DNA of 64,000 bases, from IMG/VR virus record IMGVR_UViG_3300042311_001316, positions 32,046-96,045 of that record; one strand, given 5' to 3'. Positions 5,410 through 51,317 of this stretch are shown piece by piece (positions within the stretch are counted from its first letter, which is position 1; each line of letters begins with the position of its first letter). The position numbers were made by a program, and so were the translations under genes. A model generated the notes under the pieces. The model was not told where the DNA came from, did no database searches, and was given only the letters and a program-made list of their open reading frames with translations. The DNA comes from a virus.

Positions 5410-5418
5410 AAATATTTA
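5410..5418 (-). promoter_or_regulatory. Late-promoter-like element abutting the gp14 start
   Basis: On the minus strand the sequence CTTAAATATTTATATG runs straight into the gp14-like start codon. The TAAATATTT core resembles the T4 late promoter TATAAATA. Transcription starting about 6-7 bases downstream would begin at or next to the ATG. The same arrangement recurs at several genes in this window. Confidence 0.5.
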
Positions 5419-8614: not shown

Positions 8615-8645
8615 TTTGTTATCCTTAAAGGTATTTTTAATATTT

Positions 8646-9188
8646 ATGAAAAAGAAAATTTTTAATAGAAATTACACAATAAATCCAAGCGTAAGATTAT
8701 TACGTTGTTTAGAAAGTCGTAGGCATAGTTTATGTAACAATGAGTTTTGTGAGTATTGTGGTAAAGAAAAACGAAGTTCAATGAGCAATCAAATAGTAAA
8801 TCGATTTTCAATGAGTAATCAGAGATTATGGGCAGTAACTTTATTAGACCCAAACAATAGTGAATTAGAAAATATAAAAAAATATCATGCTGATAATTTA
8901 TTAACTGGTATTTGGGTTCCTGAGATTGTTTTTAAAAGAAAAAATGTTTCAAATTGGTTTGAAAATAATATTGTATTTCATTATCATGCTGTGGTAGTTA
9001 GTAATGATAATCCTGCTGAAACAATGAGAACAATATGGAATAAGTATCGTCAATTACACGTTCAAGAGATTTACAATTTATCTGGATGGGCAAATTATAT
9101 GTGCAAAATGTTCGTTGATCCAAAAGATAAAAAGCAAACTAAATTTTTAGACAATCGATTAATAGAAAAAAAGTTAATAATATTTTAA
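8646..9188 (+). CDS. Possible HUH-type (Rep-like) endonuclease
   Basis: 180 residues from the ATG at 8646; an earlier in-frame start at 8604 would only add a hydrophobic stretch from the intergenic region. After a Cys-rich segment (Cys30, Cys35, Cys38) the order of motifs matches rolling-circle Rep proteins: a motif-I-like strand LWAVTLLD (61-68), an HUH motif FHYHAVV (His112, His114) and a YxxK motif WANYMCKMF (Tyr151, Lys154). HUH enzymes nick single-stranded DNA through the Tyr. Spacing is about right, but overall similarity was not tested, and the motifs could be coincidental. Confidence 0.4.
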   Translation: MKKKIFNRNYTINPSVRLLRCLESRRHSLCNNEFCEYCGKEKRSSMSNQIVNRFSMSNQRLWAVTLLDPNNSELENIKKYHADNLLTGIWVPEIVFKRKNVSNWFENNIVFHYHAVVVSNDNPAETMRTIWNKYRQLHVQEIYNLSGWANYMCKMFVDPKDKKQTKFLDNRLIEKKLIIF

Positions 9189-15730: not shown

Positions 15731-15762
15731 AAAGTAGAAAACAATTAATTGTTTTCTACTTT
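15731..15762. terminator. Bidirectional terminator between convergent genes
   Basis: Perfect 16-base arms (AAAGTAGAAAACAATT and its complement) with no loop spacer; the left arm follows the nuclease gene and the right arm contains the stop codon of the leftward radical SAM gene. Confidence 0.7.
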
Positions 15763-16928
15763 GATTTAGGAATTTTAGAATCAGCACTTGAAACACAACT
15801 TTTACTTATGCATTTTGTTGGTTGATCAAATATTTTAAATCCATTTACTAAATCTCCTAATGGTTGATCAGCACAACTATAGCCGCGTTTAACAATTCCA
15901 TTTGGTTCACGAATAATAATACTTTGATAACCAGAATTACAATTCCAATTTTCAAAATTATTAAAATTAAAACTGTTCATACGTTCAGCTTGATCAAGAT
16001 ACCATTTTTTGTTTTCTTCATCGGTTAATTCTACTTGCATTATTTGTGGAATTTTTTCTTGATTTTCTAAAACATCTTGTAATTTTTTATATTTTGGACG
16101 GGTTGGAATTTTATTATTTTTATCTAATGCTTGTTGTGTAAAGTCTCGTTGTGGCATACCATTATAAAGACGATTTAACATGTCTTGTGAATATCCATCA
16201 ACAATCTTTGTAGCATTATAATTGCTTTGTGGTTTTAATGTTGTATTAATCCCCAATTCATGAAAATAAAGTGCATTTTCCCAATCGAATTCAAATAAAT
16301 CAGGACGCATAACCATATTAATTGTTACTTGTATATCATTTTCTTGACAATATAATAATTTTTCAATAAATTTTTCTTTTTTAGCAAATTCAGAATGAAA
16401 ACTAGCTGTAATACTTACACGATGTAAATTTTTAGTTACTTCAACATATTCTTTTAACCATTTTAAATTTTTACTCATATTAGTTGTCATATGCACACTT
16501 TGATAATTTGTTTTTTCCAAATGAGTTGTATAATGATTTAAAATTTTTAAATAATCTGGATGTGCAGTAGGTTCACCACCAGAAAAACTAAAATGAAATG
16601 AATTAAAATTGTTTTCATTAGCTTGATAGATAATTTCATCAATTGTTTTTGTAATTACATCTAATGGTCGAAAATCTTTAATGTGTGTACTGGCGTAGCC
16701 CCAGCAGTAGGAGCAATGGGCATTTTCATATTTTTTCCCATTTACTTCAATAATTTTTTTAGATTTTTCATCAGGTTTTTTTAAAAAATTAAAATTGCAA
16801 TATCTTTGCAAAATCCAACTGACATTGAATAGATCACGCTCTAACATAGTGCGTTGACCAAATGATTTTATCTTATCAAAGGGAATTTTAGTAAAGTCAT
16901 ATTGTGACCATTTTAAATTATCGTTCAT
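15756..16928 (-). CDS. Radical SAM enzyme with split cluster motif
   Basis: 390 residues. The [4Fe-4S] ligands appear to be Cys44 in WILQRYCNF and Cys72/Cys75 in HCSYCWGYA. They would read CNFxCSYC but for an insertion of about 25 residues (Lys-rich, then a VNGKKY hairpin) between the first and second Cys. FSFSGGEPTAHPDYL is the SAM-binding GGEP motif. The C-terminal part has further Cys (NWNCNSG, YSCAD, CISKSC) that could bind an auxiliary cluster. It is not of the N-twitch type of its three neighbours. It starts after its own TAAATATT element, 15 bp from the next gene. Confidence 0.8.
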   Translation of the reverse strand: MNDNLKWSQYDFTKIPFDKIKSFGQRTMLERDLFNVSWILQRYCNFNFLKKPDEKSKKIIEVNGKKYENAHCSYCWGYASTHIKDFRPLDVITKTIDEIIYQANENNFNSFHFSFSGGEPTAHPDYLKILNHYTTHLEKTNYQSVHMTTNMSKNLKWLKEYVEVTKNLHRVSITASFHSEFAKKEKFIEKLLYCQENDIQVTINMVMRPDLFEFDWENALYFHELGINTTLKPQSNYNATKIVDGYSQDMLNRLYNGMPQRDFTQQALDKNNKIPTRPKYKKLQDVLENQEKIPQIMQVELTDEENKKWYLDQAERMNSFNFNNFENWNCNSGYQSIIIREPNGIVKRGYSCADQPLGDLVNGFKIFDQPTKCISKSCVSSADSKIPKSK

Positions 16929-16932
16929 AAAT

Positions 16933-16940
16933 AATATTTA
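16933..16940 (-). promoter_or_regulatory. Late-promoter-like element before 15756..16928
   Basis: Minus strand ACTAAATATTATTTATG precedes the radical SAM start, without a ribosome-binding site; it lies between two co-directional radical SAM genes and would give the last one its own late transcript. Confidence 0.45.
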
Positions 16941-16942
16941 GT

Positions 16943-18004
16943 TTAACTTTTAAATAATTTTGTCAATTTAAAAAAGTCTTGTTTTCTCAATTGATCTAAT
17001 TTATTGTTGTTTTCTAAAAAATTATTCCAATTTCCTTCTTTGATATTCAACAAATATTTTTTTATTTTATCAAATTGATTTTCAGAATAATAATCAATTA
17101 AATATTGTTTTTTATCAAATGAAATATGTTTTAAGTTTAAATAATCAGGATGTTCTAAAATATTCCAATAAATTTCACGATCACACCAATTATCTAATTC
17201 TTTTAAAAATTCGATATTGGTTATTTGAACTGTGCAGTGAATTTTTATTTCAGCTTTAAGTTGTTTTATAGTTTCATAATTTTTTAAAAATTGATTCCAT
17301 TTTGCAGGATAACGAATATACTCATAAACATTTTCAATTCCATCAACCGACAAATGTAATTTTAAATTAGAAAATTTTTCCCATAATTTTAAAACTTTAT
17401 CAGGTAATACAGTTAAATTTGTATTGTACTTTAATTCTATATTAGTTTTGTTATTATCGATCAACCATTGTAATATATCAATATGATGAGGGTTCAATAA
17501 AGGTTCTCCACCTGTAAAATAAATTGCTTCAATAAATTGTAAATTATTTTTTAATTGAACAAAAAATTCTTGGTTTTTATCCCAATTGTAAAGTTTAGTT
17601 TGTTCATTCCACATTTTTTGATGATCTTCTTGCCAAGCAGAACTAGAATAGCCATTACACATTCTACAACGTAAATTACAACTATTACCTAATCTTAAAT
17701 CTAAATAAACAATTTCTGTTTTTTCATTGTTTTTTATTTTTTTTAAATGAACAGAAAATTTTTCATTATAAGCTAATCTTGCACTTTTTAAACCAAAACT
17801 TTCTTCATTAAAACATCGTTTACAAACTGTTGGTTTTTTATTTTCCAACATTTCATTTTTAATTGATTTAAGGTAATTTTCTTTGTATTCTTCTATTTGA
17901 TCAAAGCGATAATTTGAAGATGATTGTGCATTACAGCAAACACGTAATTTTCCTGTTGGAGTAGTTGCTAAATGAATCCAAGGTAAAACACATAAATTAT
18001 TCAT
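16943..18004 (-). CDS. N-terminal-twitch radical SAM protein 1
   Basis: 353 residues. The N-terminus (CVLPWIHLATTPTGKLRVCC, then CKRC at 61-64) is a cysteine-rich region like the N-terminal twitch seen in a subfamily of radical SAM proteins. It is followed by the radical SAM core with CNLRCRMC (Cys109, Cys113, Cys116), FTGGEPLL (165-168) and LHLSVDGIENVYEYIRYPAKW. It shares this whole layout with the proteins at 17997 and 20664. Substrate unknown. Its start overlaps the upstream gene by 8 bp. Confidence 0.8.
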   Translation of the reverse strand: MNNLCVLPWIHLATTPTGKLRVCCNAQSSSNYRFDQIEEYKENYLKSIKNEMLENKKPTVCKRCFNEESFGLKSARLAYNEKFSVHLKKIKNNEKTEIVYLDLRLGNSCNLRCRMCNGYSSSAWQEDHQKMWNEQTKLYNWDKNQEFFVQLKNNLQFIEAIYFTGGEPLLNPHHIDILQWLIDNNKTNIELKYNTNLTVLPDKVLKLWEKFSNLKLHLSVDGIENVYEYIRYPAKWNQFLKNYETIKQLKAEIKIHCTVQITNIEFLKELDNWCDREIYWNILEHPDYLNLKHISFDKKQYLIDYYSENQFDKIKKYLLNIKEGNWNNFLENNNKLDQLRKQDFFKLTKLFKS

Positions 18005-19067
18005 CGATCCAACCTACTATTTCTTTGTCGATAACATCTTTATAATTTAAATTTCTAGTTGTATTAAAATAGTTTAAAGCAAATTTTAATTGTTCTTTAT
18101 CAAATTTATTTTCTTGTTGAATAAAATTAACTAATTCATCGTATTGATTGTGATTTTTTAATAATTGTAATTTGTTTAAAATGTATTCTTTTTTATCAGT
18201 TATATTGGCTTGGAAATATTCAGGCTTTCTTAATATCTCAAAATTTATTGGGATATTAAAATATTCATTTATTTTACCTAATTCACAAATATTAAAAAGC
18301 TGTACTGTACAATTAATCAATTGTTTTATATGTTGAAATTGTTGTAATTTAATTAAATTTTCTTCTATAATAGAAAATTTCAAAGGATAACGAATATATT
18401 TAAAAACATTATCTAAACCATCAATTGAGATTTTTATTTTGGCTTTGAGTTTATCAGTTAAATCAAAAAATTCTTCATCCCAAACAGATAAATTTGTTAC
18501 AATATTTAATTGTGGGCTTAAATTATTTTCAACTAAATGTTGTAATACTTTTTTATTATTAATATCTAATAAAGGTTCGCCACCTCGCAAATTAATTCTT
18601 TTTGCATTTTTTAAAAAAGGTTTAACTATATCAAAATTTAATTCTGATTTTAAATTTTTGCCTTTATAATGAATTGGTACATTTTTATTTTTAACCTCTG
18701 ATGCTATTGCCGAAGAACAACGTGGCGTACACATAATACATTTACTGTTACAAATATTAGAAAAATTTAAATCTAAAATTTCTGCTTGATCAAAAAATTC
18801 AGTTAATTTGTTTGGTAAAATAAATTGTTCATTTACAGTTAATCTTAAAGATTTTTTTCCTAATTCTTCATCTTTTTCACAACGCAAACAATTTTTTGGA
18901 AATTTATTATTAATAAAATCATTTCTAATTTGTTTCATAATTTCAGAATTATGGCGATTTTCAATGGGAATATTTTCAAAAGGCATATTTATTACAAAAC
19001 CACACGGTACAAACGTGCCATCTGAATGAAAACCATAACTTTTCCAAGGCATTACACATTTAACCAT
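17997..19067 (-). CDS. N-terminal-twitch radical SAM protein 2
   Basis: 356 residues from the ATG at 19067 (MVKCVMPWKSYGF). N-terminal Cys pattern (CVMPW, PCGF, CLRC), cluster motif CNSKCIMC (Cys106, Cys110, Cys113), LRGGEPLLD, and IKISIDGLDNVFKYIRYPLKF, parallel to the other two paralogs. The start lies inside the end of the sulfotransferase gene. The three paralogs are diverged from each other, so each may act on a different substrate or step. Confidence 0.8.
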   Translation of the reverse strand: MVKCVMPWKSYGFHSDGTFVPCGFVINMPFENIPIENRHNSEIMKQIRNDFINNKFPKNCLRCEKDEELGKKSLRLTVNEQFILPNKLTEFFDQAEILDLNFSNICNSKCIMCTPRCSSAIASEVKNKNVPIHYKGKNLKSELNFDIVKPFLKNAKRINLRGGEPLLDINNKKVLQHLVENNLSPQLNIVTNLSVWDEEFFDLTDKLKAKIKISIDGLDNVFKYIRYPLKFSIIEENLIKLQQFQHIKQLINCTVQLFNICELGKINEYFNIPINFEILRKPEYFQANITDKKEYILNKLQLLKNHNQYDELVNFIQQENKFDKEQLKFALNYFNTTRNLNYKDVIDKEIVGWIDE

Positions 19068-19845
19068 TATCAATCCAATCTAAAACTTCATTCCAATTTA
19101 AAATTATTTTATTTACATTATCAAAAGAGTAAGGATTTTTTCTTACAAAACCTTCATGATTAAAAGAACTTTTTTCAAAAATTGTTTCACCAATTTCATG
19201 TGGTAATTTATTTACAATTGAATTATATTCAATATTTTTATAAATTGAAAATTTATCTTTTGTTTGAATAAAAATTTCATATCGTTTTTTTATTTTATCA
19301 ACTGTATTTTTATCTAAATTAAATGGTTCGGGTAATTGATACTCTAATCCATTTAACAAATGAGTTGGATTATTTGAAAACCAAGAAATTGCATAACTTG
19401 CTATAATTTCTTTTAAATCACGATGTAAAACAATTGCTTGATAATTTTCTTTCAAATACTCAAAATCATCATCGGGAATTAAATGATGACTTAAAATTTT
19501 TAAAAAATAATGTTGATGTTTGTATTTTTCTAAAATTGTTTTAACTTTATAATCGTTTTTTAATAAAATATGATTTTTATTTATTAAATCTTCTTGGCAA
19601 GTAATATAAACTTCATTGGGAATTTTTCTTGTTCCTGGCGAATGTCTTACTTGAACTAAATTTTCATTTGTATCAACTAACCAGGGACATTCATTTTTAT
19701 TTTGATTGAATAACTCAGTTGGAGTTACACCAAAACTACAACTTGTTTTTGTTGCTAAATTATTATAAAATAAATAAAGTTGTAAACTACGATGTAATAA
19801 AAAACTTCCACTTCTACCACAAGAATAAACAAAATACTTTTTCAT
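19060..19845 (-). CDS. Sulfotransferase-like protein
   Basis: 261 residues. The N-terminus KKYFVYSCGRSGSFLLHRSL holds the PAPS 5'-phosphosulfate loop (G-R-S-G-S, residues 10-14). VLHRDLKEIIASYAISWF is the 3'-phosphate-binding arginine/serine motif. The family moves sulfate from PAPS to a hydroxyl or amine on sugars, peptides or small molecules. It is embedded in the radical SAM/amidinotransferase operon, so its acceptor may be that pathway's product. Confidence 0.75.
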   Translation of the reverse strand: MKKYFVYSCGRSGSFLLHRSLQLYLFYNNLATKTSCSFGVTPTELFNQNKNECPWLVDTNENLVQVRHSPGTRKIPNEVYITCQEDLINKNHILLKNDYKVKTILEKYKHQHYFLKILSHHLIPDDDFEYLKENYQAIVLHRDLKEIIASYAISWFSNNPTHLLNGLEYQLPEPFNLDKNTVDKIKKRYEIFIQTKDKFSIYKNIEYNSIVNKLPHEIGETIFEKSSFNHEGFVRKNPYSFDNVNKIILNWNEVLDWIDNG

Positions 19846-19852
19846 TATCTAT

Positions 19853-20686
19853 TTACTTTTTCAAATAAGTCAATAAAGCTCTAGTACCAATTAGTTTATT
19901 TTCAAAAATTGCACTATGAATACAATTTGTTTTTGTTAAATTAAAATCAAAACAAAGTTTTTCATATTCTTCTCGATAATAGTTCCATAAAAAATTATCA
20001 CCTAATGTTTCTATATAATGTAATGCCATAGCAGAATTAGTTTTATCAATCATATCATAAGCGTTCATTATACCAATACTTGTATTAGTTAAATCATTTT
20101 TAGATAAAATAACTCCAATTCTATTATTCATCATATCAAAAGATTTACTTAAACTAAAACCAATTTGTTTTATTTGACAATGACTTAAATCTAAAGTTAA
20201 TTGTTCGCTACAACCCAACCAACAAGCATCAATATAAATATCAATATTTCTTTCCGAACATATTTGTGAAATATCATTCCAATTATTGGGTAAAGATGAT
20301 GTGCATGTATTTGGTATGCTAATTATTAAAGGTATATTATTTTTTAGTTCTAATAATCCAACAGAATTATTGCCTAATTTTTGATGATATGAATATTCAC
20401 CATGTAAAACTTGTATTTTATTTGATTGATAACAATTATTAATAAAACCAGTACAGCCATTGGTTAAGTAATTATAATTAAAATTTTCTAATCCATATAT
20501 ATTATTATTTTTTGTAACATATTCGATAATTTTACTTTTTATTATTGATTGAAATTTTTTATCAGTTATTATTGATCGATATTTTTTTATGTCAAAAGAA
20601 AAATACGTATCATAAAAAATCTTATTCCAAATTGGTTTTGGGGTTGGTAATAAAAATTCTTTATTATAATATGGTGCAGTTTTCAT
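19853..20686 (-). CDS. Small PLP-dependent aminotransferase-like enzyme A
   Basis: 277 residues from the ATG at 20686, which has AAGGA at proper spacing; an ATG two codons upstream is also possible. Fold-type I features: YLTNGCTGFINNCYQ (cofactor phosphate loop), IDIYIDACWLG with the Asp that pairs with the PLP ring nitrogen, and GFSLSKSFDMMNNRIGVIL with Lys181 as the Schiff-base lysine and the conserved Arg. It is about 120 residues shorter than usual aminotransferases, lacking most of the C-terminal domain. Paralog of 23919..24689. Confidence 0.65.
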   Translation of the reverse strand: MKTAPYYNKEFLLPTPKPIWNKIFYDTYFSFDIKKYRSIITDKKFQSIIKSKIIEYVTKNNNIYGLENFNYNYLTNGCTGFINNCYQSNKIQVLHGEYSYHQKLGNNSVGLLELKNNIPLIISIPNTCTSSLPNNWNDISQICSERNIDIYIDACWLGCSEQLTLDLSHCQIKQIGFSLSKSFDMMNNRIGVILSKNDLTNTSIGIMNAYDMIDKTNSAMALHYIETLGDNFLWNYYREEYEKLCFDFNLTKTNCIHSAIFENKLIGTRALLTYLKK

Positions 20687-21710
20687 TAGCATTCCTTAAA
20701 ATATTATCAATTGCAATTGGACTTATATCTTTAAATTTTTTTCCTGTTTTAGTAAACCATAAATTTTCATAAACTATTAATTGTTTTTTATCAATATCAG
20801 AGATATTGATGTTATCAATTAATAAATTGTCGATTATTATTTTTGTTTTTTCTGGTAAATCAATTTCATTTAAAATATCTTTTGTTAATAAATTACAATT
20901 TAAAAAATTAGGATTTCTTAATATATGAAAGTACCAAGGTATATTTAAATTTAAAAAATAATCTTCAATTGATTTTAAATGCTCTAAATTTAACCATTGA
21001 ACAGTTGTTTGAGTTCTTACGTCTGATATTTTTTTAAATTCTTGTAAGTTTTTTTCTAAGGTTTTCCAATCAGTTCCTAATCGAATATATTCTGCAATAT
21101 GTCCTATTCCATCCACACTAACATTTATTTTTATATTTGAAAATTTTGATAATATTTGCCATATTTTTTTATTAAAAACACTTCCATTGGTTAAAAATTC
21201 TATTTCACAGGATAAATTATCGATTGATATTAATTTTTCTAAAATATCAATAACTTTATTTTCTAAAAATGGTTCACCTCCTGCAAAACTAATAAATTTA
21301 GCATCGTGTAAATTATTCAAATAATCATAATTTTTAATAACTTTATTATGTTTTTGTTTTAATTCCTTTTCCCATTTATTACTTGCGCTTGGCCCACACA
21401 TAATGCATTGAAAATTACAATGATTAGATAATTTAAAATCAAACGTTTGATAAATTTTATGATCTTTTTTAGCATCTTCAAATGAATATAAATTTCTGTT
21501 TAATTCTAAAATTCTTCTTGATTTTTTTCCTATTTTTTCATCATTATAACATCTTTTACATTCTGCGCTTTGCAAGTCATTTAACATATTATTTTTTATT
21601 TTTTTTAAAACATCATCATTGACGATTGCATCAGAATGGGCGCATAATCTTTGAGTATTATCAGTTTGGATATAAAAATGATTCCAAGGAACAGGACAAA
21701 AAGTTTTCAT
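20664..21710 (-). CDS. N-terminal-twitch radical SAM protein 3
   Basis: 348 residues. CPVPWNHFYIQTDNTQRLC and CKRC form the N-terminal Cys-rich region; cluster motif CNFQCIMC (Cys98, Cys102, Cys105); FAGGEPFLE; IKINVSVDGIGHIAEYIRLG. Starts with an ATGA overlap from 21707 and overlaps the next gene by 23 bp. With 16943 and 17997 it forms a divergent trio in one operon. Confidence 0.8.
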   Translation of the reverse strand: MKTFCPVPWNHFYIQTDNTQRLCAHSDAIVNDDVLKKIKNNMLNDLQSAECKRCYNDEKIGKKSRRILELNRNLYSFEDAKKDHKIYQTFDFKLSNHCNFQCIMCGPSASNKWEKELKQKHNKVIKNYDYLNNLHDAKFISFAGGEPFLENKVIDILEKLISIDNLSCEIEFLTNGSVFNKKIWQILSKFSNIKINVSVDGIGHIAEYIRLGTDWKTLEKNLQEFKKISDVRTQTTVQWLNLEHLKSIEDYFLNLNIPWYFHILRNPNFLNCNLLTKDILNEIDLPEKTKIIIDNLLIDNINISDIDKKQLIVYENLWFTKTGKKFKDISPIAIDNILRNANENCTIL

Positions 21711-22108
21711 TTTTTCATTATTTCATTAAAGTAATTTTCGGGCCAATTGTTATAATAAACTGTTTTTTTTAATATATTTCTTTTAATTTCCATATCTTTT
21801 CTGTTTTGTATAAAAATACAATTGGTAAAATTTTTAACAAAAAGTCCAGATGTTGGTGTTGATTTTAAAACGATCCAATCATCATTAAATTTTAAAGTTA
21901 AAAATGTTAATAAAATATTATCAATTTTATTATCACACCAAACGACATAAATTTTATCATTATCTGTAAAATTAAAATTATCAGTTGGTAATAAAAAATC
22001 AATTTTATTATTTATTCTAGCTGATTGGGCATAAGGACAAATATTTTTCTTTTCGATATTTGCTATTGACCATTCAATAAATTGTTTTTTAAATTCATCA
22101 AATTTCAT
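21707..22108 (-). CDS. Hypothetical protein of the biosynthetic island
   Basis: 133 residues, coupled by ATGA on both sides. FIEWSIANIEKKNICPYAQSAR near the start has a conserved-looking Cys-Pro-aromatic-Ala pattern faintly like a small bacterial family of unknown function (DUF1415-type); the rest (DKIYVVWCDNKIDNILLTFL, FIQNRKDMEIKRN) is not recognised. Because it is fully overlapped with its neighbours, it is probably a partner of the amidinotransferase or radical SAM enzyme. Confidence 0.55.
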   Translation of the reverse strand: MKFDEFKKQFIEWSIANIEKKNICPYAQSARINNKIDFLLPTDNFNFTDNDKIYVVWCDNKIDNILLTFLTLKFNDDWIVLKSTPTSGLFVKNFTNCIFIQNRKDMEIKRNILKKTVYYNNWPENYFNEIMKK

Positions 22109-23118
22109 AAATAATTTTCCATTTCACCAACTCTAGCAATATCTTGAGTACAACAATGAATGCCGCCATCCCAAAAATATTGATGTTTAAAATTCCATAT
22201 TATAGGATTTACTTTAAATTTTTCTAATTGATCAAATACTTTTTTATTAAAATGCGTAAAAATAATATTATTTTCATCAATACTTAAAGCATTAACATCA
22301 AAAACAGTTTCATCCACATAACCAACCCAATCTTTTAACCATTTTTGAATAAAATCACCATAAAAATGTTGTTTTCTTAATGATAAAAATTCATTTGGTA
22401 ATGGATTAAATTCTTCAATTAAAATAACATCCCAATTTTTTAATTGTTCAGGAATCCAATCTTTATTCCAAGTAATCAATAATCCTGGTTTAACTAAACA
22501 AATTTTTCCATCAATATGTCCGCCAATAGGAAAATCAACAAATTCACAATCGTAAAATTTGGGTAATATGTTTTTAATCCATTCTTTTCCTTTTAAATTT
22601 CCTTTGCCATTTTTTTCATCTTCTTCTATTGATTGGGATATTAAAATATGTTTACCTAGTTTAATCATATTAGCAGCATCAAAATATAATTCTACATTTT
22701 TATTTTTTTCTATTTTAGGTTGTGGCATAGATAAATTAACAAAATCATCGATCCAATTTTTTTTATAACTTAAATGTTCAAATTGACGATTATCATGTTT
22801 AGTAAACATATCAATTGCTAAATTACCATAAACAAATAAAACATCTCTTGGCATCAAAGGTGGACTCATAAACTTATAATCATTCCAAGGTAAAGAAATA
22901 TTTTCTTCAAAATTATCTACTAAAATATCAGGGCGAATAACTTCAATATCAAATGTTTTTAGTAATTTTTCTAATTCATTTAATTGTTCATTTGTTTCAT
23001 GTAATATAATTTGTATGCTATTTTTAAATTCTTGATTTTTATGATAATCAAAAATCTTTTGGTCATATGTTTTACCTACAATAATTTTTTTTAATTTTTG
23101 AAACTCAGTAAAAGTCAT
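22105..23118 (-). CDS. Amidinotransferase-like enzyme A
   Basis: 337 residues with the order of motifs seen in arginine:glycine and arginine:inosamine amidinotransferases: MPRDVLFVYGN, YFDAANMIKLGKHILIS, DFPIGGHIDGKICLVKPGLLITW with the catalytic His-x-Asp, and WDGGIHCCTQDIAR near the C-terminus with the nucleophile Cys322. The family moves the amidino group of arginine to an amine to give a guanidino product. Starts by ATGA overlap from a 2OG oxygenase. Paralog of 24686..25699. Confidence 0.8.
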   Translation of the reverse strand: MTFTEFQKLKKIIVGKTYDQKIFDYHKNQEFKNSIQIILHETNEQLNELEKLLKTFDIEVIRPDILVDNFEENISLPWNDYKFMSPPLMPRDVLFVYGNLAIDMFTKHDNRQFEHLSYKKNWIDDFVNLSMPQPKIEKNKNVELYFDAANMIKLGKHILISQSIEEDEKNGKGNLKGKEWIKNILPKFYDCEFVDFPIGGHIDGKICLVKPGLLITWNKDWIPEQLKNWDVILIEEFNPLPNEFLSLRKQHFYGDFIQKWLKDWVGYVDETVFDVNALSIDENNIIFTHFNKKVFDQLEKFKVNPIIWNFKHQYFWDGGIHCCTQDIARVGEMENYL

Positions 23119-23885
23119 TCGATTTCCTCATAAAGAGTAAACGCCAATCCACATTTTGTTTTAGTATTATTTTTTCTATGATCAGCACTACAATGAATTT
23201 GTGTTGGATCAATAACCATAATTGAACCAATTTTCCAAGGCAATATTTTTTCTATATGTAAATCAGTTAAATTTTCTTTTGGAAGAAATGAAAGATATTC
23301 ATCGTATATTTTTTGATCTTGCCAATTATTTTCTTTATTATATTTTCTTGATCCTTTTTCTAAATCATAAAATTCTATATCATCATGAGAATAAACATCT
23401 TTCCAATAACCTTTTACGCTATCTTTTTTAAATCCTTGACAAAAAATAGTACCATAATTTAAAACTCGTTCACGAAAGCAAATTAATCCAGAATGTAAGT
23501 CTTCATTTTTACTTGGGGTTACAAATAAAGGTATGACAAAATGTTTTAAAGGTATTAATTTATGATCAAATATTGATGATTCTTCTTCGCTCATACTGTC
23601 TGCGTGTAAAGCATAAGGATGTAAAGTTAAATAAAAATTTCCACCATAATGTTTTTTTGAGAAATCTTTATTTATTAATCTTTTAAACCTATCAGAAAAT
23701 TTATCAGCAATAATAGTATGTTTATTTTTAATTTTAAACAACATTGTGCCACTTTCTTTTATTGTTGTTGATGAATGCTCTCGCCACATAAAATCAATCA
23801 TCCAAGAAATTTCTTCTTTAGAGAAAAAATCATCAACTTGAAAACATTCACTTAAATTTGTTTTCCATTTATCAAAATTAGTCAT
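23115..23885 (-). CDS. 2OG-Fe(II) oxygenase-like protein A
   Basis: 256 residues. The iron ligands are probably His94-x-Asp96 in YALHADSM and His231 in PTQIHCSADHRKNNTKTKCGLAFT, with a basic residue nearby for 2-oxoglutarate. PLKHFVIPLFVT and WKIGSIMVIDP are typical jelly-roll strands. It is the first gene of the main leftward island operon and starts after a TAAATATTT element. Confidence 0.65.
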   Translation of the reverse strand: MTNFDKWKTNLSECFQVDDFFSKEEISWMIDFMWREHSSTTIKESGTMLFKIKNKHTIIADKFSDRFKRLINKDFSKKHYGGNFYLTLHPYALHADSMSEEESSIFDHKLIPLKHFVIPLFVTPSKNEDLHSGLICFRERVLNYGTIFCQGFKKDSVKGYWKDVYSHDDIEFYDLEKGSRKYNKENNWQDQKIYDEYLSFLPKENLTDLHIEKILPWKIGSIMVIDPTQIHCSADHRKNNTKTKCGLAFTLYEEIE

Positions 23886-23887
23886 GT

Positions 23888-23896
23888 AAATATTTA
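23888..23896 (-). promoter_or_regulatory. Late-promoter-like element heading the main island operon
   Basis: Minus strand ATTTAAATATTTACATG precedes the oxygenase start codon at 23885. It would drive at least 23885 to 16943, whose genes overlap or nearly abut. Confidence 0.5.
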
Positions 23897-23918
23897 AATG
23901 AAAACCGATTTAATGATT

Positions 23919-24689
23919 TTAGTATAAACTAGATAAACAAATTCTTGAATATTCGTTTCCACGATTAAATTGTTTAAACTTACCAAAGCTGTATCCTAAA
24001 ATAACACTATCACTTGGTATTATTTTTAATTTATCACAAATAGAAATTTGTTTAATTCTATATTTTTCATATAACGTATCTATATTATTATGTATAATAT
24101 AATTATAAGCTATATTCATTCCTAGAAACGGTAAATGATTATTTTGATTTAATAATTCAATAGGATCATCATCATATTTTTTAGTAAATCTAATACCACA
24201 TCTATATTGAAAAACCGGAATTATTTTATGCATAGAATGCGCTATAACATCAATACAATTGTTATTTGGTATTTTTATCTTTTTTGTTGTGCCATAATAA
24301 GCCAAATCTAAAAAAACTTTAATATCGTTTACATCACAATAATTTAATATTTCATCAATATTTTGAAAGCATCCGTTATCACAAAACGGAAAACTAATAG
24401 CTAAAATTCCTTCTTTTATTTCTTTAAAATTTTTTATAAAATTAATATTCATATTTAAAAATTTTGCCACATTTTGATAATATGAATATTCACCAACAAA
24501 TAAATTCAAGGTTTTTGTTTTATTTTTCATTAACCAAACATCAATTGATTGTGTTATTCCTGTTGTTATATTAATTTGATCAAAATCATTTATACCTAAA
24601 AATTTTTGATATTTTAATTTATAATCATTTGATAATATAAATGAATTAGTTATTTTATTAAAAATTGGTTTTATTTGTTTTAAACTCAT
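23919..24689 (-). CDS. Small PLP-dependent aminotransferase-like enzyme B
   Basis: 256 residues from the ATG at 24689, which overlaps the amidinotransferase stop as ATGA (a longer start at 24716 is less likely). INITTGITQSIDVWL, VGEYSYYQ, IKVFLDLAYYGTT (Asp128) and IDVIAHSMHKIIPVFQYRCGIRF (Lys155, then Arg) align with the protein at 19853. It too lacks the usual C-terminal domain. Together with the two genes before it, it forms a second copy of the oxygenase-amidinotransferase-PLP module. Confidence 0.65.
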   Translation of the reverse strand: MSLKQIKPIFNKITNSFILSNDYKLKYQKFLGINDFDQINITTGITQSIDVWLMKNKTKTLNLFVGEYSYYQNVAKFLNMNINFIKNFKEIKEGILAISFPFCDNGCFQNIDEILNYCDVNDIKVFLDLAYYGTTKKIKIPNNNCIDVIAHSMHKIIPVFQYRCGIRFTKKYDDDPIELLNQNNHLPFLGMNIAYNYIIHNNIDTLYEKYRIKQISICDKLKIIPSDSVILGYSFGKFKQFNRGNEYSRICLSSLY

Positions 24690-25699
24690 TTTCTTTTTAA
24701 ATCCAAAGTAATACAATGTGGACCACCACCCAATGTCCTACAATGTGTTAGTTTAATTGGTATGCAATCAAAATTGTGGTTTTTTAATAATTTCATTAAA
24801 GGTTTTTGTGTTTCTTCTACTATAATAGTTCGTTCATCAATACTTAATATATTCATAGCCATCCAAATACTACTATTACCAAAGTCTTGATGTATTTGAG
24901 TAGGGATCGGTTCATCGAAATAAATACAATTCCAATTTTTGAAAAATTCCGGCAGGTTATGTTTATTAACTCTTGAAGAATTTAATAAAATTGTATTATC
25001 ATTTAATGGAACAAAAGTTGTATCAACATGCATGTAAGAATAAAAATTTTCTAAAATATGTAGTTTATAATTTTTTGGTATATTTCTTTTTAACCATTCT
25101 GCGCCTTTTAAATTTCCAGTATTGCTTACTAAATAAAATATATTATTATCTACTTTAAAAATATTTGCGGCATCAAATAAAATTTCTTCATTTGTTAATG
25201 TTGGTATTTTTAAATCATTTAATTGATAATTTTTATCTAATAATTTTTGCTTTGGGGCGCTGATCCAGTTAAACCCTTCTTGAAATTTTTCTTCAAAAAT
25301 TTCAAATAAAGAGAAATTCTCAAAATATCTTGATCGTAACACATTTGGTGATTCAATTATAGTATTTTCTATTACTAATGCTGTGTCTCTTGGGCAATAA
25401 GAAAAATATTGTTCAGTTTTCCAAAAGCTATTACTAATTTTATTTTTATTAATTGGTTTACTTCTATATGTTTTTATATTATGCGACCTTAATAATTCTT
25501 CAAATTTTTCTAAATCATCGAATGTTTCATCAATAATATTTTTAGGATATTGACCTAATTTCAATTTTTTAAATTCATTATTTGATAAATTAGCATATTC
25601 GATACTATGCATAGATTTATCTTTTGTATTAGGTTTAATAGCATTTATAATATTACCTATTATAACTTCTTGTAATGTTGAATATTCGTTTTTAATCAT
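24686..25699 (-). CDS. Amidinotransferase-like enzyme B
   Basis: 337 residues, the same length as paralog A. YCPRDTALVIENTIIES, ILFDAANIFKVDNNIFYLVS, YSYMHVDTTFVPLNDNTILL (catalytic His-x-Asp) and TLGGGPHCITLDLKRK with nucleophile Cys329. The GGGPHC end is closer to the glycine amidinotransferase pattern than paralog A is. ATGA overlaps join it to the genes on both sides. Confidence 0.8.
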   Translation of the reverse strand: MIKNEYSTLQEVIIGNIINAIKPNTKDKSMHSIEYANLSNNEFKKLKLGQYPKNIIDETFDDLEKFEELLRSHNIKTYRSKPINKNKISNSFWKTEQYFSYCPRDTALVIENTIIESPNVLRSRYFENFSLFEIFEEKFQEGFNWISAPKQKLLDKNYQLNDLKIPTLTNEEILFDAANIFKVDNNIFYLVSNTGNLKGAEWLKRNIPKNYKLHILENFYSYMHVDTTFVPLNDNTILLNSSRVNKHNLPEFFKNWNCIYFDEPIPTQIHQDFGNSSIWMAMNILSIDERTIIVEETQKPLMKLLKNHNFDCIPIKLTHCRTLGGGPHCITLDLKRK

Positions 25700-26289
25700 T
25701 TATAGATGCTCTTTCTTGGTATTACATTTTCAGTATCAGACGTATAATATATAAATCTCAATGCTTCTGCATTATTAGAATTTTTACTAACTGAATGCCA
25801 AGAATTTTCAGTATTTTCAAATATAACAAAATTATTTTTAATCCAATCGTATGTAACTTTATTATTATCATTTTCTAAAATTAATTGACAATCGCTATTA
25901 TTTAAAAAATAAATTCCAGTTAAAAATCTTTTTAAACCTAGATAGCTATTAATTGTATAATCTATATGTGCTTCAACCATATGATTTTCAGGTATTCGCA
26001 TAAAACCCCCGCCCCAAAAATTCATATCAACAATTATTCCTTTTTTATTAAAATAATTTTCTAATTTTTTTATAAATTTATGATTATAAAAATAATTTAC
26101 GGGTATATTAGTAATATTTTCATCTAAATCATAAATCCAAGTATACTCGTGTAATAATGTGTTTTTATTTTGATAAATTTTGCATTCTTTTTCTGTTAAT
26201 TTATTAAAATAAATTTCTAATGTATTTGTAATTTCATTAGAAAAAACATTTGTTAATAATAAATGATTATAAGGTTTATTTTTAAACAT
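25696..26289 (-). CDS. 2OG-Fe(II) oxygenase-like protein B
   Basis: 197 residues. VEAHIDYT gives His108-x-Asp110; ENSWHSVSKNSNNAEALRFIYYTS gives His165 and Arg178, the full facial triad and 2OG-binding Arg. LKRFLTGIYFLNN is a core strand. Smaller than paralog A and not closely similar. First gene of a short leftward operon from the bidirectional element at 26290. Confidence 0.75.
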   Translation of the reverse strand: MFKNKPYNHLLLTNVFSNEITNTLEIYFNKLTEKECKIYQNKNTLLHEYTWIYDLDENITNIPVNYFYNHKFIKKLENYFNKKGIIVDMNFWGGGFMRIPENHMVEAHIDYTINSYLGLKRFLTGIYFLNNSDCQLILENDNNKVTYDWIKNNFVIFENTENSWHSVSKNSNNAEALRFIYYTSDTENVIPRKSIYK

Positions 26290-26301
26290 ATAAATATTTA
26301 T
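26290..26301. promoter_or_regulatory. Palindromic bidirectional late-promoter-like element
   Basis: ATAAATATTTAT is a perfect 12-base palindrome and fills the entire gap between divergent start codons at 26289 (leftward oxygenase) and 26302 (rightward sulfotransferase). Neither gene has room for a ribosome-binding site, so transcripts from this element would be nearly leaderless. Confidence 0.5.
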
Positions 26302-26943
26302 ATGAAAATATTATTATTATCTTCTGAAAGAAGTGGAAGTACCGCATTTCAAGAATTTTTAGCTAATAAAAATAATATTAAAAATTATTTAGAACCTTTT
26401 GAAAATACTCAAAATAAAAGATTTACAAAAAGTAATGAATATTCAATAATTAATGCTATAAATATATTATGTAACGATAATAATTATATTATAAAAATAC
26501 AAATGAATCAAATGAATGATAATAAAATAAAATTTATAATTAATGAGTTACAAATTGATAATATAATAGTATTATTGAGAAAAAATTTTATTGAACAATG
26601 TTTAAGTAATCAATTATCAAATTATACGGATAAATGGCACAATTCAGATTTAAAACCAAAAGATAACATAATACATCATGAAATGATAAAAAATAAAACA
26701 TTTAAGGCAAATGAAAAATATTTTATAAATCAAGAAACTTACAATAAAAGATTATTAAATTGGGGGTTAAAAAATCCTATTTATTTTCATGAAGATAATA
26801 TTGTTAATTTTAATTGTACACGTTATAAAAAATTAAATAACAATATTATCACTAATTTTACTAATCAAAATGAAATATTTCATTTTAATACTAATTATAA
26901 TGTTAGTTTGAGAAAATATTTAAATGAAAATTTATATTATTAA
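26302..26943 (+). CDS. Sulfotransferase-like protein, diverged
   Basis: 213 residues from the ATG at 26302; a frame extending upstream to 26263 would overlap the divergent gene and is rejected. MKILLLSSERSGSTAFQEFL carries the PAPS loop; IIVLLRKNFIEQCLSNQLS corresponds to the 3'-phosphate motif. It is shorter than the sulfotransferase-like protein at 19060. Overlaps the next gene by 20 bp. Confidence 0.65.
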   Translation: MKILLLSSERSGSTAFQEFLANKNNIKNYLEPFENTQNKRFTKSNEYSIINAINILCNDNNYIIKIQMNQMNDNKIKFIINELQIDNIIVLLRKNFIEQCLSNQLSNYTDKWHNSDLKPKDNIIHHEMIKNKTFKANEKYFINQETYNKRLLNWGLKNPIYFHEDNIVNFNCTRYKKLNNNIITNFTNQNEIFHFNTNYNVSLRKYLNENLYY

Positions 26944-27091
26944 AGAACCAACAGAAAATGATTTTTTTTATATAGAAGATTTAATTTCTTATTTTAATTT
27001 AGAAATAGTCGAAGATATTAAACAAGCAGATATTTTGTTTTTTCAACCTTATTATGATTATGGTAATTATAATAATGCACATACGATTTAA
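26924..27091 (+). CDS. 5' part of an interrupted glycosyltransferase-like gene
   Basis: 55 codons (MKIYIIKEPTENDFFYIEDL, then DIKQADILFFQPYYDYG) ending in a TAA inside the loop of a perfect 21-bp inverted repeat. The same frame continues past the stop into 27098..27964. The region corresponds to the N-terminus of the paralog at 27951 (MKIFDPN..., IEQADFVWIENSP), so the two parts together make one normal gene. Confidence 0.5.
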   Translation: MKIYIIKEPTENDFFYIEDLISYFNLEIVEDIKQADILFFQPYYDYGNYNNAHTI

Positions 27092-27111
27092 TCGTATGTG
27101 CATTATTATAA
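27067..27111. repeat. Perfect 21-bp palindrome inside a coding region
   Basis: Arms 27067-27087 and 27091-27111 are exact reverse complements, separated by TTA. The in-frame TAA at 27089-27091 is in the loop. It is neither a terminator (no T-run) nor intergenic. Possible origins are a templated insertion, a recoding/bypass structure or an assembly artefact. Confidence 0.85.
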
Positions 27112-27964
27112 ACCTATTGTTTATTTTGATATTTGTGATTATAGCCCATTATATGAAAATAAAGAACTATTTAATTTTTTAAAAGAAAACAATATAAAAT
27201 TAGTAACCTTTGATAAAGAAAATATTAAAATTATAAATGATGAATTTATAATGAATTATTGGGAATTAAAAAGTTATCTAACAACATTAACAATAAAAAA
27301 TGAAATTAATAAAAGATTTTTATGTTTAAATCGCAGGATTCATGAATTTAGAAATACATTAATTGGTGAATTATATAATCAAAATTTATTAGATAATTTT
27401 TTATTAGGTTTTGGGCGCGAACGATCAGGTAAAAAACAACATTTTGATTATAATAATTTAAAATATATAACAAATAACAATTATAAAAATTTTGAAAAAC
27501 AATTACCAATTATATTACAAAACAAAGTTAACAATTTAACTGTTGAAGATATATTTTTATTAAAACAAGATTTGTTCTCTAAAACCCAAATGAGTATAGT
27601 AACAGAAACAAACTTTAATTTTCCCATTTTAACAGAAAAAACATATTTAGAATTAAGTAATAATCGACCTTTTATAATAGCTGGCGGCGCTTATTCATTA
27701 AAAAAATTACACAATAAAGGTTTCAAAACTTTTTCTTTATTATGGGATGAAAATTATGATTTAATAGAAGATCATACAAAAAGGTTAAATGCTATCGTAG
27801 AAGTAATTAGATTTCTAAATAATTTAGATAGTAAAGAGTTTAATAATATTATTGAGAAATCAAAAATAATATCAGAATATAATAAACAAATATGTAATGA
27901 AATTTTACAAAAAACTAAAAATAACTTTAATCAATATATTAGGAATATAAATGAAAATATTTGA
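27098..27964 (+). CDS. 3' part of an interrupted glycosyltransferase-like gene
   Basis: 288 residues in the same frame as 26924 (174 bases apart). KPIVYFDICDYSPLY follows, then RFLCLNRRIHEFRN and a C-terminal block MSIVTETNFNFPILTEKTYLELSNNRPFIIAGG, FSLLWDENYDLIEDHTKR that aligns with the next gene. The E-T...E-K...E-L...G-P-F-I pattern resembles the C-terminal donor-binding half of fucosyltransferase/exostosin-type GT-B enzymes. Without the upstream 55 codons it has no ribosome-binding site, and its ATG-like start would be a CTG/GTG/ATG inside the palindrome arm. Confidence 0.6.
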   Translation: MHYYKPIVYFDICDYSPLYENKELFNFLKENNIKLVTFDKENIKIINDEFIMNYWELKSYLTTLTIKNEINKRFLCLNRRIHEFRNTLIGELYNQNLLDNFLLGFGRERSGKKQHFDYNNLKYITNNNYKNFEKQLPIILQNKVNNLTVEDIFLLKQDLFSKTQMSIVTETNFNFPILTEKTYLELSNNRPFIIAGGAYSLKKLHNKGFKTFSLLWDENYDLIEDHTKRLNAIVEVIRFLNNLDSKEFNNIIEKSKIISEYNKQICNEILQKTKNNFNQYIRNINENI

Positions 27965-30438: not shown

Positions 30439-30747
30439 TTAGCTCCATTTTAAAATCATTTCTACTTGAAAAGCGTTATCTTGAATTGGGTGATCTTTTA
30501 ACCAATCATGGACATTATCATATATTTTGTTATTTAAACAAAAAGAATATTTCTCATTGGGCCAAATAACTGCTGGTCCAGTTAATCGATGCCAAATATA
30601 ATCTTTTTCACACCAAACTTTATGACTGCTTTCTAAATCTTCAAAAGCAGGTGTATTTTCATCAGGTGAAGAAATTTCATATAATGGCATATCATTAGGA
30701 TCATCAGTAGTAAATTTTTCACCATTTACATAATAACGGTATGTCAT
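30439..30747 (-). CDS. HRLTGPA-family protein, copy 6 (short tail)
   Basis: 102 residues (MTYRYYVNGEKFTTDDPND). Full core YIWHRLTGPAVIWPNEKYSFCLNNKIY (the usual DG is NE here) and WLKDHPIQDNAFQVEMILKWS tail. ATGA overlap with the Pth2-like gene upstream; stands alone rather than in a cassette. Confidence 0.8.
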   Translation of the reverse strand: MTYRYYVNGEKFTTDDPNDMPLYEISSPDENTPAFEDLESSHKVWCEKDYIWHRLTGPAVIWPNEKYSFCLNNKIYDNVHDWLKDHPIQDNAFQVEMILKWS

Positions 30748-31778: not shown

Positions 31779-32084
31779 TTATGAATATTTTAATAACATT
31801 TCTACTTGAAATGCATTAACTTGATTTGGGTGTTCTTTCAACCAATTATGAATATTTTCATAAAATTTACCAATTAACCAAAAATATTCTTTTCCATCAT
31901 TGTCAATAAACGCAGGGCCAGTTAATCGATGCCAACAATTTTTTTCTTTACACCAAAGTTTTTCGCCTGTTATCAAATCTTCCCAAGCTGGTGTTTCTTC
32001 ATTTAATGAACAAATTTTATCATGTGGAATTTTATAATAATCTTTAGTTGTAAATTTCTTACCATCAATATAATAAACAATCAT
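31779..32084 (-). CDS. HRLTGPA-family protein, copy 7 (short tail)
   Basis: 101 residues (MIVYYIDGKKFTTKDYYKIP). Variant ICSLNEETPAWEDL in place of ISSPDENTPA; CWHRLTGPAFIDNDG core; WLKEHPNQVNAFQVEMLLKYS tail. Confidence 0.8.
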   Translation of the reverse strand: MIVYYIDGKKFTTKDYYKIPHDKICSLNEETPAWEDLITGEKLWCKEKNCWHRLTGPAFIDNDGKEYFWLIGKFYENIHNWLKEHPNQVNAFQVEMLLKYS

Positions 32085-34757: not shown

Positions 34758-34783
34758 GATTTGCAGCTAATTAGCTGCAAATC
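34758..34783 (-). terminator. Rho-independent terminator of the AAA+ gene
   Basis: 13-base perfect arms (GATTTGCAGCTAA and complement) containing the AAA+ stop codon, followed on the minus strand by TTTTATAAGG. Confidence 0.65.
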
Positions 34784-49764: not shown

Positions 49765-51279
49765 ATGAAACCTTTTGATCCAAGTAAGCTTATAAAAGCT
49801 GTTAATAAATCTGTACCCAATGTTAGCATTGGTTTTAATGATCCTCAAATTTGGCTTAGTACAGGCTGTTATCTTTTAAATTATCTGATATCAGGTGATT
49901 ATAAAAAAGGTATTCCTTTAGAGGGCAAAATTACCTGTGTAGGTGGTGAAAGTGGTTGTTTACCTTCAACTGCCGAAGTTATTTTAAGATCGAATTTTAC
50001 CAATAATGAAAATTTAGATTATAAAACAATAACAGTTGGTGAATTAAAAAATATTTATTTTGAAAATAAAAGTAAACAATTGCCTACATTTATTGAAACT
50101 CCTGATGGTTCACAAACAATTGTCAATTGGTTTAACAAAGGTCAATTACCTTGTGTTAAAGTAATTACTGAAAGTGGTAAAATAACAATTTGTGCAACCA
50201 ATCATATGTTAGAAACTGCAAAGGGTTGGGTATTAGCTGAAAATTCTTTAAATGAAAATGTTATTATTCTTAATAACAATCAATCATTTGAAGATAAAGT
50301 TGTAGAAGTAATTCCTTACGATACAATTGAATGTTTTGATTTTGAAATCAATCATCAAAATCATCGTTATTGGGGTGATGGATTTAGTTCACATAATAGT
50401 GGCAAATCTTATATTGTTTCGGGCAACTTAGTAAAAGACGCACAAGAAAAAGGTATTTTCGTAGTTATGTTTGATACTGAAAATGCTTTAGATGAAGAAT
50501 GGTTGCATAATTTGGGCGTTGATACTGATCCTAGTAAATTAATGCGAATTAATGTTGCTATGATTGATGATGTTGCCAAAACTACTACTAAAATTTTAGA
50601 TGAATATAAAGAAACATTTGATGGTGTTCCTTATAATGAACAAGCTCCTATTCTTTTTATTATTGACAGTTTAGGAATGCTTATTACACCAAACAATGAA
50701 CGGCAATTCGAAGAAGGTGACATGAAAGGCGATATGGGCATTAAAGCAAAACAATTAACTGCTTTAATGCGTGGTATAAGTGCAAAAATTGCAAATAAAA
50801 GAATTGGTATGATTTGTACCAATCACGTTTACGCTGCACATGATCAATATTCACCTGATACATTAGCTGGCGGTAAAATGGTTGAGTATGCTACTAGCAT
50901 TATTATCCAAATGAATAAACTTTTATTAAAAGAAGATGAATTTGGTAATAAATTAACTGATGGCGCGGTAGCTGGTATTCGTAGTAGTGTTGTAGTTAGA
51001 AAAACACGTTATAACAAACCATTTGAAAAAATGAAAATTGAAATTCCATATGAACAAGGCATGAATCCTTATTCTGGATTATTTGATTTCTTATTTAGTA
51101 GAAATATTTTAGTTAAAGAAGGTAATCGATATTCTTATACTTCACCAGTAACAGGTGAAATTTTAAAAGATTTTCGTAAGAATTTCAAATATGAATGGTT
51201 AGATCAAATTATGGAAGAATGGTCTCATTGGACAAAACATGTTGAACAAGTAGCACCAGTTGAAATAGTAGAAGATTAA
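49765..51279 (+). CDS. uvsX: UvsX recombinase interrupted by an in-frame mini-intein
   Basis: 504-residue precursor starting at the ATG at 49765 with AAGGAAAAT upstream. An earlier frame start at 49711 lies in the gp32 terminator and is rejected. Exteins join to a 357-residue UvsX/RecA-type ATPase. The Walker A loop, GGESG...SGKSYIVSG, is restored only after removal of residues 65-211. VVMFDTENALDEEW, ILFIIDSLGMLITPNN, RGISAKIANKRIGMICTNHVYA and AGGKMVEYATSIII are the Walker B, L1/L2 and later RecA motifs. UvsX pairs homologous strands with gp32 and UvsY. Confidence 0.9.
   Translation: MKPFDPSKLIKAVNKSVPNVSIGFNDPQIWLSTGCYLLNYLISGDYKKGIPLEGKITCVGGESGCLPSTAEVILRSNFTNNENLDYKTITVGELKNIYFENKSKQLPTFIETPDGSQTIVNWFNKGQLPCVKVITESGKITICATNHMLETAKGWVLAENSLNENVIILNNNQSFEDKVVEVIPYDTIECFDFEINHQNHRYWGDGFSSHNSGKSYIVSGNLVKDAQEKGIFVVMFDTENALDEEWLHNLGVDTDPSKLMRINVAMIDDVAKTTTKILDEYKETFDGVPYNEQAPILFIIDSLGMLITPNNERQFEEGDMKGDMGIKAKQLTALMRGISAKIANKRIGMICTNHVYAAHDQYSPDTLAGGKMVEYATSIIIQMNKLLLKEDEFGNKLTDGAVAGIRSSVVVRKTRYNKPFEKMKIEIPYEQGMNPYSGLFDFLFSRNILVKEGNRYSYTSPVTGEILKDFRKNFKYEWLDQIMEEWSHWTKHVEQVAPVEIVED
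49957..50397 (+). other. Mini-intein (147 residues) in the UvsX Walker A loop
   Basis: Begins with Cys (CLPSTAEVILR, block A), has a block B-like GQLPCVKVITESGKITICATNHML with the conserved His, and ends with a block F/G FDFEINHQNHRYWGDGFSSHN and Asn, followed by Ser as +1 extein nucleophile. The usual TxxH of block B reads AxxH here. No LAGLIDADG or HNH segment is present, so it cannot home by itself. Splicing joins GGESG to SGKS, making ATP binding depend on intein removal. Confidence 0.9.
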
Positions 51280-51290
51280 TCTTCTACTAT
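51265..51290 (+). terminator. Rho-independent terminator after uvsX
   Basis: 13-base perfect arms (ATAGTAGAAGATT and complement) containing the uvsX stop codon, followed by TTTTTC. Confidence 0.7.
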
Positions 51291-51317
51291 TTTTCTTATA
51301 AAGAACTAAGGAAAAAT

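Follow-up and report, generated by a model that had tools for sequence, protein, structure and literature searches.

The window analysed here, the whole stretch of 64,000 bases of viral DNA to which positions refer unless a locus is named, contains a GT-like gene in two pieces, parted by a stop codon which lies at the very centre of a perfect palindrome. Is this stop the mark of an unusual way of reading the gene, a functional element, a fault in the assembled sequence, or the result of a mutation? We conclude that the gene, which belongs to a T4-related jumbo phage, was probably split by a template-switch (fold-back) error of replication, a mechanism which we infer. The palindrome at 27067-27111 is most likely one more case of a mutation type already known and not a new mode of gene reading, and its outcome is most likely a split, probably damaged gene.

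The window comes from a tailed bacteriophage with a UvsX-like recombinase, an RnlA/tail-fibre-attachment protein, a tail sheath and a gp32-like protein. UvsX and the tail sheath find their best matches among jumbo myoviruses (PA5oct, Atu_ph07, Phosso and SCTP-2, for example), with identities of about 33-51%.

Two halves of a probable single gene

The features discussed below are collected in Table 1. As the initial annotation had stated, the two halves are in one frame, their starts 174 nt apart, with a single stop between them: the coordinates of the ORFs 26924-27091 and 27098-27964 confirm this, the TAA being the sole in-frame stop ahead of 27964 and the frame past 27091 staying open for 290 codons. 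Start and stop overlap at both neighbours (26943/26924 and 27964/27951). The upstream neighbour, which we take from its N-terminal motif to be sulfotransferase-like, gave no convincing match in family searches. The conserved motif lies at a similar distance from the ATG in the split gene (NRR at residue 136) and in the paralog which follows it (FRRP at residue 128). Because of the shared frame, of this distance and of the overlaps with both neighbours, more than because of the N-terminal match to the paralog, the two halves are best read as one ancestral gene.

Table 1. Positions of the split gene, of its palindrome and neighbours, and of the four other palindromes with a stop at the apex.
Feature	Position	Strand	Remarks
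Upstream gene	26263-26943	+	same strand as the split gene
N-terminal fragment, 55 aa	26924-27091	+	ends with TAA 27089-27091; start lies inside the last bases of the upstream gene
5' arm of palindrome	27067-27088	+	codon usage of native coding sequence
TAA stop, in frame, at hairpin apex	27089-27091	+	first base (27089) at the palindrome's centre
3' arm of palindrome	27090-27111	+	putative reverse-complement copy of the 5' arm
C-terminal fragment, 288 aa	27098-27964	+	GTG start 6 nt past the stop; whole conserved GT-B-like domain
Intact paralog, 326 aa	27951-28931	+	
Apex-stop palindrome	34758-34783		703-aa gene ending at 34767
Apex-stop palindrome	51263-51292		UvsX-like gene ending at 51279
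Apex-stop palindrome	L145, 13876-13899		
Apex-stop palindrome	L147, 7866-7892		

It had also been claimed that the two halves together match the paralog. This holds clearly for the C-terminal half (30% identity over ~126 aa, E 1e-9, a score reached by none of 300 shuffles), and the N-terminal 55 aa match only weakly, their score being reached by 18 of 1000 shuffles against the first 110 aa of the paralog and by 57 of 1000 against the whole of it. The C-terminal part also matches a large phage protein family, with ~30% identity in local alignments. A motif scan found at least 120 stretches with distant family members; compared with 40 of these, the read-through protein has 18-27% identity, the figure of 30% belonging to the paralog or one member. 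The distant members gave no reliable alignment across the N-terminal region around the palindrome, hence the ancestral junction is not seen there.

The predicted structure of the read-through protein has good confidence only beyond about residue 100-130, up to the C-terminus; its residues 1-78 have a pLDDT below 50, and the fold around the palindrome region is of low confidence. Residues ~105-346 of the model superpose on the C domain of glycogen synthase (2bfw; Z 9.6, rmsd 3.6, 173 aligned) and on T4 BGT (1nzd; Z 9.4, rmsd 3.5, 188 aligned). A Foldseek search with the same model gave nothing at E 0.001 or better, the top rows being GT10 fucosyltransferases. According to the model, the C-terminal half has a GT-B nucleotide-binding domain, as a fold; a glycosyltransferase activity is putative.

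Origin of the palindrome

The palindrome is 45 nt long and its arms are 100% complementary. It had been described as a 21-bp perfect inverted repeat with the TAA in its loop; the TAA is at the centre indeed, and the arms are really of 22 nt with a spacer of 1 nt. When the palindrome is folded as RNA, one obtains a stem of 21 bp and a loop of 3 nt, to which the flanks add 3 pairs (-29.3 kcal/mol, z -8.65). No perfect arm in simulated windows (n=30, first-order Markov) was longer than 13, so that the 22 at 27067 is far above chance expectation. The GC content is 22% in the palindrome versus 19% in the local part of the gene.

No second copy of the palindrome was found within the window nor in either of the two phage records considered below, and its 25-nt core has no further copy in viral_contigs or genome_contigs. 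A comparison with phages by blastn returned partial matches at chance level only (best E 0.2). We reject a mobile palindromic element, since none of these searches gave a repeat copy; the composition is also that of the surrounding gene. Rfam gave for the hairpin just two sub-threshold microRNA matches, of a sort that a long hairpin of any origin might give.

We then asked which arm is the copy, with codon scores for which 28 of the window's ORFs served as training set; the comparison bears on 6 codons per arm and on one case. Set against 10,610 coding windows, the 5' arm (+1.96 bits) ranks at the 31st percentile, and the 6 codons wholly inside the 3' arm (-5.42 bits) rank at the 0.075th. Against reverse complements of coding windows without a stop (n=6,992), by contrast, the score of the 3' arm is at the 19th percentile. 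A difference between arms of 7.4 bits or larger occurs in 34% of simulated native-then-copied arms, and in the opposite direction in 0.13%. Measured against windows of seven codons from the same gene, the 3' arm scores below all 318, and the 5' arm ranks at the 40th percentile (of 316). The 5' arm thus looks native and the 3' arm like coding sequence in reverse complement, so that the latter most likely arose by copying back the former, on statistical grounds and not by comparison with an ancestor. Such a test of codon asymmetry may offer simple help in telling palindromes made by fold-back copying from those which are functional or were inserted. The initial annotation had proposed a palindromic insertion inactivating the gene: the codon asymmetry agrees with an inactivating palindrome, which would be a fold-back copy rather than an inserted element.

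The probable course of events would be the following. The polymerase would have reached about 27088-27089, reversed there to copy ~22 nt of the strand just made or of its partner, and regained its proper template near 27112. This would leave a perfect palindrome of 45 nt, with the TAA supplied by ATT-T-AAT, the turning point itself. That the original template was regained past the copied stretch is indicated by the same frame on both sides, next to an N-terminal match to the paralog which is weak. Template switches are an established class of event, by which perfect hairpins form in one step (PMC8794818), and the link between quasipalindromes and template-switch mutations was, according to PMC7202029, first seen in yeast CYC1 and T4 rIIB. 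The palindrome studied here resembles known mutations of this kind (T4 rIIB, E. coli thyA, yeast CYC1) in being a perfect inverted repeat of which one arm is apparently copied, with both sides collinear (PMC7202029). It differs from them by its 22-bp arms, by its presence in both natural phage records, by the stop which it introduced and by the lack of an observed ancestral quasi-palindrome. The coding palindromes described for nematomorph mitochondria are likewise long perfect inverted repeats within protein-coding genes, but both their arms encode conserved protein (PMC6649704), whereas here the codons of the 3' arm are non-coding-like and the centre is a stop.

A fold-back chimera, made for instance during library preparation, would equally give a native arm and its reverse complement in one assembly, and the gene of the phage would then be intact. 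However, a second IMG/VR record (G001, 146,077 bases) has the identical 45-mer at the same place as the window's own record (G000, 96,045 bases). The two records have 4 differences across the 64,000-base window and are thus distinct assemblies of almost one and the same phage, possibly from related samples. In addition, the 45 nt fit within one short read and the gene continues in frame on both flanks. The assembly artefact considered in the initial annotation is thus unlikely as the source of the palindrome, and we give very little credit to an artefact of sequencing or assembly in general. Protein-based scans of viral_contigs for close homologues gave the near-identical record only, and the C-terminal part and the paralog had no match in phages at E up to 10. 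Neither viral_contigs nor phages yielded an orthologue without the palindrome; the 3' arm may have been inserted, or may have taken the place of earlier sequence.

The stop at the apex

The hairpin with its stop calls to mind translational bypassing, which the initial annotation had put forward. In T4 gene 60, as described in PMC5009743, bypassing uses a stop beside the take-off codon, a landing codon which matches the latter, a stem-loop at take-off and a signal in the nascent peptide. The split gene is similar to it (PMC5009743) in that the stop is immediately 3' of a possible take-off codon (ATT 27086), that a stable hairpin is present and that a matched in-frame ATT (27116) lies just beyond the 3' arm. 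We nevertheless find it extremely improbable that a joined product arises, in the manner of T4 gene 60, by bypassing between these codons or by readthrough of the stop. The landing match is uninformative, being expected by chance: there are 7 ATT in the next 60 nt, and ATT makes up 6% of the codons of the gene. KKYK, the nascent-peptide motif of gene 60, is absent from the 55 aa, and the downstream part is already in frame 0. The placement of the stop in T4 gene 60 would also differ from that in the split gene, at the apex of a long stem. Above all, four other genes of the same phage end with a stop at the apex of a perfect hairpin, the same frame being open for 7, 8, 9 and 33 codons beyond it. 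Since these genes end in this way, with the same frame soon closed, the apex of a hairpin is an ordinary place for a gene to end in this phage. Bypassing is therefore not supported, and a stop within a perfect hairpin of a phage gene need not mean recoding.

The four genes have their stop at 0.5 to 4 nt from the centre of the palindrome, and a T-run is not found in all of them. For two of the four, another frame is open over 109 or 119 codons beyond the stop. Our search of the literature found no paper on apex-stop perfect palindromes in jumbo phages; we claim no novelty for the pattern.

Hairpins of the phage and fate of the gene

Perfect palindromes with arms of at least 12 number 40 in 171.7 kb of the phage (L143, which duplicates part of L149, is excluded from the count). 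As many as 27 of the 40 are centred at most 40 nt from the stop of an ORF of at least 90 aa, against 10% of random points; 5 are inside such ORFs and 8, that of 27067 included, are elsewhere. For 4 of the 40, the stop of such an ORF is at most 5 nt from the centre. The longest arm of all is that of 27067, which is inside a gene and has no outer arms made of an A-run and a T-run.

Symmetric perfect palindromes with such A-run and T-run outer arms are found in the window at 5417, 9788, 31270, 43209, 44198, 46158, 49707, 56571, 59260 and 62488, among others. They are mostly at gene ends, look like terminators and are far commoner than in other AT-rich viral loci. Perfect palindromes with arms of at least 12 number 0 in 29 AT-rich viral loci (274.9 kb) and 5 in all 109 loci counted (1,071.6 kb; those of L021-L140 longer than 3 kb), both sets being fragments of mixed phages. 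Per 50-kb stretch, palindromes number 7 in PA5oct, 6 in SCTP-2, 5 in RaK2, 1 in Atu_ph07 and 1 in T4; the window has 18 in 64 kb. Perfect hairpins are thus common to several jumbo relatives, many of these hairpins being terminator-like. The palindrome of the split gene is like the bidirectional terminator-like hairpins of PA5oct, RaK2 and SCTP-2 in being perfect and of similar size; it is unlike them in its position inside a gene and in lacking A-run/T-run outer arms.

This abundance bears on whether the palindrome persists because its hairpin has a function, either between two cistrons coupled by termination-reinitiation (TAA 27089, GTG 27098) or as a 3'-end element. The excess of palindromes near ORF stops, the four with a stop at their centre, the overlaps with both neighbours, and the conserved motifs and frame-specific codon usage retained downstream all speak in its favour, and a loose scan for terminator-like sequences flags the 27067 hairpin (1 found, 0.2 expected). 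However, the site is inside the gene and not at a gene end, the tail ACCTATTG after the 3' arm has no T-run, and no Shine-Dalgarno-like sequence is apparent ahead of the GTG. We regard a functional hairpin as unlikely, and the splitting of the gene by a template switch as the probable reading.

After such a split, the phage probably makes no full-length protein. Translation of the C-terminal domain may persist through a putative termination-reinitiation at GTG 27098. In E. coli, a terminator can act when it lies within the first 100 bp of a coding region, whereas immediately behind a gene it is repressed (PMC4824070). As the 288-aa downstream frame retains the conserved domain, the motifs and the frame-specific codon usage, either the event would be recent or the C-terminal part would still be made.

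A wider conjecture, to which we attach only a small probability, is that fold-back copying is frequent in this group of phages and gives genes their ends, a single switch providing both a stop and a 3' hairpin. If this were true, the palindromes at gene ends, those with an apex stop included, would have arisen long ago and been kept by selection, with 27067-27111 as a fresh case seen in the act of splitting a gene. The excess of hairpins makes this phage a possible natural system for the origin of hairpins and gene ends by template switch.

Two other groups of genes can be mentioned. On the minus strand, 15756-26289 holds four radical-SAM genes, of which the three tested match NCBIfam NF033640 above its cut-off, together with dimethylargininase/arginine-deiminase-like, 2OG-oxygenase-like and possible aminotransferase genes; Atu_ph07 likewise has three annotated radical-SAM genes close together. 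Paralogues of ~100 aa with an HRLTGPA-like motif are apparently repeated, at 30439-30747 and 31779-32084 of the window and at 8638-8958 and 9060-9476 of L001.
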